Origin: Aromatoleum evansii
GTDB lineage: Bacteria > Pseudomonadota > Gammaproteobacteria > Burkholderiales > Rhodocyclaceae
Direction: 5' to 3'
Assembly (NCBI RefSeq): GCF_012910805.1
Contig: NZ_WTVK01000011.1
Coordinates: 1 to 64,000, forward strand
Length of the DNA: 64,000 nt
The translations under genes were made by a program, and so were the position numbers. This document shows, piece after piece, positions 20,170 to 33,239 of the stretch. The notes under the pieces were generated by a model. That model did not search any database and was not told the DNA's origin. It saw nothing but the letters and a program-made list of their open reading frames with translations. Position 1 is the stretch's first letter. Every line of letters begins with the position of its first letter.

Positions 20170-20271
<102 letters not shown>

Positions 20272-30956: not shown

Positions 30957-31161
30957 AGTGAGTGATCGGGTCTTGCGGTCGCCGGAAGGGGCGTCGCCGC
31001 CACTGCGCGGGGAAGCCCGCGGAGTGACGATCATAACCTCTTCGAGCGTTGCGGGTGCGCGGATCTTGATGCGTTCTGCCACGGTACGCGGGATAATCCG
31101 CTTTTTTCAGTTTGCGCCACTATCTGCATCCGGCCCGGCCGGATCCACAAGGAGTCATTTC

Positions 31162-32163
31162 ATGCGACGCGTCACGCTAACCCAGTTTCTGATCGAGCAG
31201 CAGCGCGCGGGCCGGACCACGCCCGAGCTGCGCCTGCTGATCGAGGTCGTCGCCCGTGCCGTGAAGGCGATCAGCGTCAATGTGTCGAAGGGTGCGCTTG
31301 CCGGCGTGCTCGGCGAGGCGGGCACGGACAACGTGCAGGGCGAGGCCCAGAAGAAGCTGGACGTGATCGCAAACGAGATCCTGCTGCAGGCGAACGAGTG
31401 GGGCGGTCATCTGGCGGCGATGGCCTCGGAGGAGGTGGAGGAGGTGCACCAGATTCCCTTCGATTATCCGAAGGGCGGTTTCCTGCTGCTGTTCGATCCG
31501 CTCGACGGTTCGTCGAACATCGACGTGAACATCTCGGTCGGCACGATCTTCTCGGTGCTGCGCAACCCTGAGGGCGTGGGCGAGCCGACCGAGCAGAACT
31601 TCCTGCAACCGGGCCGTGAGCAGGTTGCCGCGGGCTATGCGCTGTACGGGCCGTCGACGCAGCTGATCCTGACCGTGGGTAACGGCGTGCATGGTTTCAC
31701 GCTGGACCGCGAGATGGGCAGTTTCATCTACACCCACCCGTTCATGACGGTGCCGGAGGAGACGCAGGAGTTCGCGATCAACGCCTCGAACGCGCGTTAC
31801 TGGGAGCCGCCGGTGCAGCGCTACATCGCGGAGCTGCAGGCGGGCAAGACCGGCCCGCGCGGCAAGGACTTCAACATGCGCTGGGTGGCGTCCATGGTCG
31901 CGGACGTGCACCGCATCCTGACGCGTGGCGGCATTTTCATGTATCCGCTGGACGAGAAGTGCCGCGACAAGGGTGGCAAGCTGCGCCTGATGTACGAGGC
32001 GAATCCGATGGCGATGATCATCGAGCAGGCGGGCGGCGCGGCGACGACGGGCCGCGAGCGCATCATGGACGTGCAGCCGACCAAGCTGCACCAGCGTGTG
32101 CCGGTGGTGCTGGGCTCGGCGGCTGAAGTCGAGCGCGTGACGCAGTATCACTTGGAAGCTTGA
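31162..32163 (+). CDS. fbp: Fructose-1,6-bisphosphatase class I
   Basis: Protein of 333 residues that dephosphorylates fructose 1,6-bisphosphate in gluconeogenesis. The metal-binding signature [13 protein letters not shown] and the upstream acidic MASEEVEEV segment are present, as is [14 protein letters not shown] with the catalytic-site region near the C-terminus. AAGGAG precedes the ATG by a normal distance. A possible -10 (GATAAT, 31092-31097) lies in the divergent dadA-fbp gap without a good -35. Confidence 0.95.
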
Positions 32164-32172
32164 GGCTGAGAA

Positions 32173-32191
32173 GGCGCCCCCTCGGGGCGCC
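32173..32191 (+). terminator. Hairpin after fbp
   Basis: An 8-bp stem (32173-32180/32184-32191) with a 3-base loop lies nine bases after the fbp stop. No T-run. Confidence 0.5.
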
Positions 32192-32390
32192 CGCCCGAGC
32201 GCGGTCCGGGTTCTGGCCCGGGCAGGCGCTCGTGGCCTTCGGCTTCCCGGAGCTGCGTGCATTGCGGGAGAGGCGACGCAAACTCGCCGGCTGCGCCGGC
32301 TCAGACATGCGTCGCCTTTTTTCTCCCGCAATGCACGCAGCTCCGGCACTCGCGGACAGCCCGGGCCAGAACCCGGACCGCACTCGGGCG
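32192..32390. repeat. Long structured inverted-repeat element, copy A
   Basis: A 199-base quasi-palindrome. The outer stem 32192-32222/32360-32390 matches at 30 of 31 positions. The inner stem 32247-32270/32323-32346 is a perfect 24 bp. A third stem, 32271-32280/32308-32317, is a perfect 10 bp (AGGCGACGCA), and the apical stem is 6 bp (32286-32291/32295-32300). Unpaired segments sit between stems: 24 bases on the left (CAGGCGCTCG...CGGCTTC), 13 on the right (CACTCGCGGACAG), and a TTTTT bulge at 32318-32322. Copy B, 133 bases away and inverted, has the same architecture and the same unpaired segments but different stem sequences. Short reading frames cross it but show no coding signal. The function is unknown. 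Confidence 0.85.
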
Positions 32391-32457
32391 GAAAGTCGTC
32401 CATCTCCCAGCCTACCAAGGCAGCTCGAACATCTCAGGGCTTCGATAAGCTCGACTC

Positions 32458-32483
32458 GATCGGTTTTTTGCGTTTAACCGATC
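32458..32483. other. Hairpin between the two structured repeats
   Basis: An 8-bp inverted repeat (GATCGGTT 32458-32465 with AACCGATC 32476-32483) contains a T6 run. It lies in the AT-richer spacer 32391-32522 between copies A and B; nothing else is recognised there. Confidence 0.5.
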
Positions 32484-32522
32484 ACTTAACCCTTACGCAA
32501 CGACATATCGCTCACATTTCAG

Positions 32523-32705
32523 GCGGTCCGGTGTCCTCTGCCGGGCTGTCCGTAAGCGCCGGTCCGATGCGGTCTGCGGGGGAAACGAGGCGACGCATGT
32601 TTGAGGGCGCAACGCGCCCGAGTTTGCGTCGCCGCCCCCGCAGACCGCATCGGACCGGGAAGCCGAAGGCCGCGAGCGCCTGCCCGGCAGAGGACACCGG
32701 ACCGC
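32523..32705. repeat. Long structured inverted-repeat element, copy B (inverted)
   Basis: A 183-base quasi-palindrome. The outer stem 32523-32546/32682-32705 is a perfect 24 bp, the inner stem 32559-32582/32635-32658 is a perfect 24 bp, the third stem 32589-32597/32625-32633 is a perfect 9 bp, and the apical stem is 6 bp (32605-32610/32614-32619). A 5-base AAACG bulge sits at 32583-32587. Read on the minus strand, its unpaired segments (AGGCGCTCGCGGCCTTCGGC, ending CTTC; CGCTTACGGACA; AACTC) nearly equal those of copy A. The middle of the outer stem, the inner stem and the apical stem differ from copy A while remaining self-complementary. Confidence 0.85.
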
Positions 32706-32759
32706 GGGCTCGTTCAAGTAGGCACCGACCGGACGCTTGTTGATCGGGAACGACGCCCC

Positions 32760-33239
32760 TCACCCCGGCCGTCGCCCCTCGCCGGTCCGGATCTCTATCG
32801 TCTTCTCGTCCTTCACGACTTCCATGACGACGTAGGTGTGCGTCTGCTTGACGCACGGCAGCTCGGAGATCTTCTCGCCCAGCACGCTGCGGTAGGTCTG
32901 GATGTCGCGCGTGCGCACCGTCAGCAGGTAGTCGAAATCGCCCGCGATCATCTGGCAGGTCTGTATCTCGGGGATGCGCTGCACCGCCTCGTTGAAGAGC
33001 TTCAGTTCGTGTGCGGTCGTCCCGCTCAACAGCACCTGCACGATCACGACGTGCGAGCGGTCCATCGCGACCGGATCCAGGTCGGCGTGGTAGCCACGGA
33101 TCACGCCGCTTTCCTCCAGCTTGCGCACCCGCTCGGCGCACGGCGTCTTGCTCAGGCCGACGCGGCGCGCGAGCTCGACGAATGACAGGCGGGCATCCTT
33201 CTGGAGTTCGGCGAGAATCTTGAGATCTATGCGGTCCAT
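32760..33239 (-). CDS. Lrp/AsnC-family regulator, probably of putA
   Basis: Protein of 159 residues: an N-terminal winged HTH (MDRIDLKILAELQKDARLSF, VELARRVGLSKTPCAERVRKLE) and a C-terminal RAM/AsnC effector domain (MIAGDFDYLLTVRTRDIQTY). It is divergently transcribed from putA with a ~185-base shared control region. This PutA lacks the DNA-binding domain that autoregulates it in enterobacteria, so a proline-responsive activator (PutR-like) is the likely role. That role is inferred from position. Confidence 0.85.
   Translation of the reverse strand: MDRIDLKILAELQKDARLSFVELARRVGLSKTPCAERVRKLEESGVIRGYHADLDPVAMDRSHVVIVQVLLSGTTAHELKLFNEAVQRIPEIQTCQMIAGDFDYLLTVRTRDIQTYRSVLGEKISELPCVKQTHTYVVMEVVKDEKTIEIRTGEGRRPG

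Follow-up and report, generated by a model that had tools for sequence, protein, structure and literature searches.

The 596-nt gap between fbp and a convergent gene for an Lrp-type regulator contains two hairpins of one design, mutually inverted (elements A and B), which on balance appear to be copies of a dispersed chromosomal element of ~150–300 bp that is maintained as a folded RNA from one specific strand. Both lie in the window, that is, the whole stretch of 64,000 nucleotides that was analysed. The names of the two neighbours, fbp on the left (31150–32163, plus strand, with a start chosen by us) and the Lrp-type regulator (32760–33239, minus strand), are taken from an earlier note on this DNA. 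The elements belong to a family with covarying stems, loops conserved at shared sites, mismatches specific to one strand, an intergenic position in the genus, and copies gained at new sites.

Element A (32191–32391; delimited by its arms, fold, and alignment) has an outer stem P1, whose arms (32191–32223 and 32359–32391; 33 nt, 97% paired) differ between copies, and an inner stem P2 (32247–32271 and 32322–32346; 25 nt, 100% paired). Its constrained (RNA) strand, assigned from the mismatch skew described below, is the minus strand. On that strand, a conserved internal strand (32224–32246) can form a mini-hairpin P5 (GCC-GAA-GGC, RNA strand), and a conserved right internal strand occupies 32347–32358. 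P2 is followed by a one-sided bulge (32317–32321, minus strand; AAAAA here and AAACAA-type in other copies, RNA strand) and the P3 stem (left arm GGCGACGCA, 32272–32280; right arm TGCGTCGCC, 32308–32316), within which a conserved terminal internal loop (32281–32307, minus strand; UGUCUGA/GAGUU, RNA strand) surrounds the apical hairpin P4. Element B (32523–32705), delimited by its arms and fold and inverted relative to A, has the plus strand as its constrained (RNA) strand, again from the mismatch skew. It comprises P1 (32523–32546 and 32682–32705; 24 nt, 100% paired), P2 (32559–32582 and 32635–32658), and the P3 stem with the conserved terminal loop and apical hairpin P4 (32589–32633, plus strand); inner arms of 33 nt (within 32559–32591 and 32626–32658) are 88% paired. 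The RNA strands of both elements point away from the spacer between them (32392–32522).

A and inverted B are 75% identical over 147 nt. Read as RNA, A (32180–32400, plus strand) folds with −176.7 kcal/mol (z −14.4) and B (32510–32720, minus strand) with −151.4 kcal/mol (z −12.7), 0 of 200 shuffles being equally good in either case. The arms, the alignment, and these folding scores confirm the earlier reading of two copies of one architecture in inverted orientation; of its structural details, the bulge, the GGCGACGCA stem, and the 6-bp apical stem stand, whereas the arms of A reach 32191 and its inner stem is 25 bp rather than 24. The long internal strand forms a mini-hairpin (GCC-TTC-GGC) in the fold of A that is absent from the best minus-strand fold of B, and because of this mini-hairpin the element is probably a three-way junction, not a plain hairpin. 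Immediately 3′ of fbp, and touching element A, lies a further GC-rich stem-loop (32173–32191), in which a clear T-run is absent.

A nucleotide search of the own genome (G000) found eight copies, namely A, B, and six elsewhere. Their outer-stem arms differ, 94.8% of 349 stem cells pair (75.6% in shuffles), and both sides have changed in 23 of 44 pairs. The covariance model R1, searched in 61 genomes with a threshold of E ≤ 0.001, matched 16 of them, strongly in 11 of 17 genus genomes (own included) and in one of the family, and weakly in four others (G021, G028, G050, and G056). The strong copies number 52 in the 12 genomes of genus and family, at 11 sites as defined by neighbour genes, nine of which are occupied in at least two genomes. 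This set was refetched with flanks and aligned, leaving out the weak G016:C27:38435, G003:C88, and two reverse-strand echoes. Over 44 pairs, 92.6% of 2264 cells are paired (74.4% when shuffled) and 7.4% unpaired, the paired percentage being biased upward because the alignment was fitted to the model; when the partner is slid by 1–3 columns, pairing is 38–47%. Changes on both sides are seen in 27 of the 44 pairs, and for four of five covariation measures no shuffle out of 500 came as high, whereas for the fifth (further pair types) 406 did. The compensatory stem change read from A and B by the earlier note, which had suggested a covariance-model search of relatives, is thus borne out by many further copies with new, mostly compensated stems, and its caveat that the two might be the only copies anywhere does not apply. 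Compensation in homologous copies is incomplete: most cells are paired, but copy A of G012 carries changes in its inner stem without compensation, and the unpaired cells of the alignment add to these.

The fbp–lrp site was compared in 11 genomes, G010 being left out (an Lrp relative with no fbp found beside it). An intact A+B pair is present in G000, G012, G001, and G016; G003 has B plus an A without its inner part, G005 a single fused copy, and G014 one copy with an unrelated outer stem, only remnants persist in G002, G009, and G015, and G013 has no copy. These gaps (L159–L169) form a natural palindrome-deletion series, from the intact pair through half-deleted and fused forms to the outer stem only, and the losses look like deletions between arms. 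Since several species have lost or gutted their copies here, no single copy is essential. Divergence was measured on 91 ortholog pairs at eight sites; two single-copy sites were excluded, as was fbp–lrp, where A and B are confusable. The loops diverged by a mean of 0.065, compared with 0.295 for the variable P2 portion and 0.235 for four-fold sites in the neighbouring genes, so that the unpaired segments evolve ~3.6 times more slowly than four-fold sites. The loops are the slowest class at all eight sites, and the stem rate equals or exceeds the four-fold rate at seven of them.

The stem mismatches of the 52 copies are highly asymmetric. In the direction of A they comprise 95 A·C, 10 G·T, and 73 others, 56 of these C·T; the excess of A·C and C·T corresponds to G·U wobbles and G·A on the opposite strand, where G·U outnumbers A·C at 11 of 11 sites. 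The constrained strand is therefore the reverse complement of the reading direction of A (minus for A, plus for B), and the family combines covariation with G·U tolerance on one strand, as structured RNAs do. The absence of G–U pairs in the eight own copies had been considered as a sign of DNA-level upkeep; this was rejected, since the non-constrained strand had been read and the mismatch skew reversed the inference. Of 127 copies from the various phyla, 115 fold better as the RNA strand than as its complement and 12 fold worse; for random fragments taken from these loci as controls, the figure is 167 of 357. The RNA strand is the better one in 20 of 20 AT-rich copies (G·U pairs, 96 vs 18) and in 75 of 85 GC-rich copies, in which the G·U excess is small (249 vs 214), and when the conserved loop is replaced by GAAA it is still better in 106 of 127 and worse in 21. 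The skew is found at 21 of 26 copies whose neighbour genes read the RNA strand and at 26 of 31 whose neighbours read the other strand; being alike for either direction, it is not caused by transcription-coupled mutation. Among mismatches in single-stranded DNA, too, G·T is comparatively stable, and the mismatch skew is thus compatible with single-stranded DNA as well.

These mismatches and the loop divergence also bear on mutational upkeep, in which quasipalindrome template switching would copy one arm to the other with no selection at all. Such switching would suit the middle of the outer stem of A, a block change from TTCTGGCC in G000 to GGCGGCTC in G016 with both versions compensated by the partner, and the stem rates at or above the four-fold rate at seven of eight sites. 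It should, however, mend A·C and G·T alike, against the 95 and 10 observed, and should erase asymmetric loops, which are instead conserved. As the asymmetric loops persist and the tolerated mismatches are mostly one-strand G·U, template switching fails as the sole cause, and we regard it in that role as very improbable; it may speed up the turnover of the stems. The earlier note had named selection on a folded DNA or RNA or, as the other option, template-switch repair: pairing and loop conservation uphold selection on a folded nucleic acid, template switching does not hold as the sole cause, and the strand asymmetry had gone unseen. Virtually no credence is given to a conserved short peptide encoded on the RNA strand. 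The loop reads ATG TTT GAG ... GAG TTT GC in many copies, but its halves are separated by 5 to 18 nt, with 13 of these 14 lengths represented and no restriction to multiples of three, and the stems vary freely; the codon-level conservation that the earlier note had named as counter-evidence is not seen, and the ORF 'MFERSEF...' on the RNA strand is presumably spurious.

With respect to the genes, whose relation to further copies had likewise been named as a check, none of the 52 genus copies lies inside a predicted gene, and in the RNA direction the upstream gene is in sense at 9 of 11 sites (commonest call per site). In other groups, gene calls on both sides are available for 97 copies: 26 lie between tandem genes in sense and 31 in antisense, 35 between convergent and five between divergent genes, and two further copies lie inside predicted genes; gene calls are rough in the mixed GC-rich sets, and those for Bordetella rest on a training set of just 11 genes. 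The downstream neighbour, where called, converges on the RNA 3′ end in 10 of 13 cases in Clostridium, 14 of 17 in Zoogloea, and 8 of 11 in Bordetella. The neighbour-gene counts thus place the copies near gene ends and away from divergent promoters, with no fixed relation to transcription outside the genus. Neither a conserved block beyond the element ends nor, after A or B on the RNA strand, the U-run of an intrinsic terminator was seen by eye. It is improbable that the elements are simple 3′-end hairpins stabilising or terminating mRNA without a specific partner: their adjoining of gene 3′ ends and avoidance of divergent promoters would be in keeping with this, but such hairpins need only stable stems, which leaves the slow unpaired segments (~3.6-fold below four-fold sites) unexplained, and the missing U-runs at both window elements also count against it.

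The family extends far beyond the genus. When 84,980 species, represented by a single genome apiece, were scanned for exact matches to both loop halves, at least 119 stretches emerged, with about a dozen chance hits roughly estimated for the whole collection; at least four pattern hits are without a P3 stem and may be chance (L044, L059, and both Kazan loci, L084 and L112). Among the matches listed are Rhodocyclales, Burkholderiales, Lysobacteraceae, Clostridium and other Clostridia, Nitrospira, Saprospiraceae, Desulfobacteraceae, Patescibacteria, and others. Related hairpins are found in Clostridium, Nitrospira, Bordetella, Zoogloea, Saprospiraceae, and Patescibacteria, and those of Clostridium extend to ~300 nt. 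Each of twenty genomes chosen for having a hit contains 1–28 matches, and the reversed pattern has 0 in all of them. Between phyla, the search pattern dictates the loop letters and leaves the stems free: in 32 sequences from several phyla, double changes occur in 7 of 10 P3 pairs and 1 of 2 P4 pairs, a count biased upward as these were chosen from 56 mostly by dropping poor or shifted stems, the three never-varying P3 pairs being imposed by the search pattern.

The distribution is patchy, with the element in 2 of 274 genomes of the class by the exact pattern and in 4 of 249 genomes of the phylum by model R2 (own included in both). The window copy has 0 matches in 72,556 plasmid records and 0 in 50,697 phage records, and no plasmid record matches the one Bordetella copy or the one Clostridium copy searched; a Curvibacter copy occurs in two plasmid records, and IMG/VR holds one exact loop match. 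Nitrospira G064 (L189–L208) has 28 loop matches, of which the 20 fetched copies are near-identical at the core and sit within larger mosaic repeats, so that their ends are not definable. In some order-level relatives (L289, L292, L293, and L296), a second strong hairpin (GGTTACTT..GGCGAAGC..AAGTGACT or similar) follows the first, and in L293, L296, and L291 the core hairpin is tandemly duplicated with units of ~66 to 113 nt. Tandem copies are also present in G545 and G187.

Copies have spread within a single species. Bordetella genomosp. 4 (G075) has 23 R2 matches at E ≤ 0.001, six of them weak (4e-7 to 2e-4), and of 11 relatives three have one match each (weak in G596) and eight have none; a nucleotide search adds a diverged copy missed by R2 in G592 and fragments in G589 and G590. 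Sixteen of the G075 copies can be aligned across ~260 nt; their flanks are unrelated, and the arms of P1 and P2 vary. At one site, genes that are 10 nt apart in G592 are separated in G075 by a ~340-nt insert containing a copy, and in G593 by ~91 nt with no matching copy; the diverged flanks make target duplication unreadable here. At the L278 site a copy is common to G592, G593, and G594, and parts are retained in G590 and G588. In L301 (G592) the loop is altered in both halves (AAACCCG/CCCGGACA), possibly in a coordinated manner. A Y1 transposase (PF01797) was considered as the mobiliser and rejected, G000 and G075 having no match. The domain is present in 19 of 37 genomes searched and absent from 18; it is absent from 8 of 11 element-bearing genus genomes and present in 6 of 6 genus genomes without the element. 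Clustering of the ORFs within 2.5 kb of the copies gave no common transposase or partner family, the largest cluster being mostly translations over the hairpin. In Curvibacter (L107:4754–6256), an inverted element pair encloses two ORFs (125 and 184 aa), like cargo between ends.

The main alternative is a single-stranded DNA hairpin in the style of REPs or attC sites, exposed during replication or in cruciforms, whose unpaired bases would be recognised by an enzyme, either a recombinase or a transposase, that places copies at new sites, with no RNA function needed. The 23 R2 matches against none or one in 11 relatives, the occupied and empty site, the patchy distribution, and the frequent inverted pairs, in which the RNA strands point away from the spacer, fit this reading, as does the orientation independent of neighbour genes outside the genus: placement unrelated to transcription speaks for DNA, and the missing sense preference there is, together with the missing flanking block, odd for an obligatory RNA. 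Against it, neither G000 nor G075 has a Y1 match, the domain being missing from most element-bearing genus genomes and present in those that lack the element, replication-strand bias is absent (in three genomes, 12 copies run with the fork and 12 run counter to it, as counted by hand from dnaA with the terminus assumed opposite and the genus copies partly orthologous), and the purifying selection on shared-site loops exceeds what a selfish copy would need. We consider a purely DNA-borne element rather unlikely. The G·U skew favours the RNA reading, and so do the likely three-way junction, whose GAA-capped mini-hairpin varies in length, the even distribution over both replication strands, and the missing Y1 gene.

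Taken as RNA, the element would be a long stem broken by conserved unpaired segments, with a probable three-way junction, a one-sided A-rich bulge, and, at the apex, a 7×5 internal loop (UGUYUGA/GAGUU) carrying the apical hairpin. The constrained strand may act as RNA through read-through from neighbouring genes, the conserved loops may be where a protein or RNA partner binds, and the stems would hold these loops in register; copies would arise by insertion into intergenic DNA and be lost by deletion between arms. Tentatively, the elements might represent a class of mobile structured RNA that has not been described before and spans several phyla (Bacillota, Nitrospirota, Bacteroidota, Patescibacteria, and Betaproteobacteria) with the same fold and internal loops, that spreads without the help of a Y1 transposase, and that is retained through RNA-level selection after insertion. 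A loop common to such distant phyla points to a widely distributed binding partner or copying enzyme. Dispersed palindromes are often regarded as transposition debris; here, the unpaired letters of copies at shared sites are ~3.6 times better preserved than silent codon positions, paired letters are replaced over time, and one strand is constrained, so that the choice between a working RNA and passive DNA becomes directly testable.

No Rfam family reaches its gathering score at the elements in the window or at 18 fetched loci, and matches by E-value (VA RNA, microRNAs, and others) are far below the gathering scores and were taken as chance. The sole match at gathering score in the window is the bacterial small SRP RNA (RF00169, 79.4 bits) at 20173–20271. 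The elements thus share covarying stems and conserved loops with the structured RNAs of Rfam, but no family reaches its gathering score here. Queries with the loop letters, the peptide, and other terms found no published description of the hairpin family in the open-access literature. The attC sites of integrons act as a folded single strand with conserved extrahelical bases and variable stems, and the single-strand fold, conserved unpaired bases, and variable stems recur here; the present elements differ in being scattered singly or as inverted pairs, and the ends of the eight own copies share no simple site like the attC boxes at the hairpin base. The bcr1 repeats, dispersed and ~155 bp long with a conserved fold, are alike in dispersal and fold and differ in being limited to one species group, a comparison made by description, not sequence.

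REPs are 20–40 bp long with one tag tetranucleotide (GTAG or CGTC), and the same source treats TIR families with RAYT/TIRYT and counts G·T pairing in favour of transcription (Di Nocera et al. 2013, PMC3733652). According to the sections of it used here, both kinds resemble the present elements as dispersed palindromes of many phyla, located between tandem or convergent genes and often forming inverted dimers (PMC3733652). The elements are nevertheless larger (150–300 nt; 183–201 bp in the window and ~260–300 nt in Bordetella and Clostridium) and have several conserved internal loops, the outer ends of the eight own copies share no tetranucleotide, CGTC (RNA strand) occurring only inside one loop strand in part of the copies, and the Y1 gene of REP/RAYT and IS200/IS605 systems has 0 matches in G000 and G075; the TIR families are likened by description only. 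The view that no known repeat family matches is therefore upheld by Rfam and by REP size and tags, the Betaproteobacterial repeat element (BRE) having been set beside the elements by description only. Stem-loop families in Bordetella and others have been listed by Petrillo et al. (PMC2267715). BRE (Hot et al. 2011), in the part of the description drawn on here, is 75–91 bp at full length, GC-rich, chromosomal, mostly intergenic, patchy, and sometimes tandem, with occurrences reported from Bordetella, Azoarcus EbN1, and Comamonadaceae; Northern blots detected transcripts of 80 nt and ~200 nt from the bprJ locus of B. pertussis, and bcr1 of Bacillus cereus is also named (PMC3110155). Stem covariation, strand specificity, and presence outside Betaproteobacteria are not in that part of the description (PMC3110155), and the lexA-adjacent array reported for BRE was not seen in Bordetella genomosp. 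4 or in 11 relatives, a set from which the species studied there may be absent. Compared by description, not sequence, the elements share with BRE the overlapping taxa, the chromosomal intergenic position, and the tandem copies (PMC3110155), and the P2–P4 hairpin of Bordetella genomosp. 4 is, by eye, of similar length.
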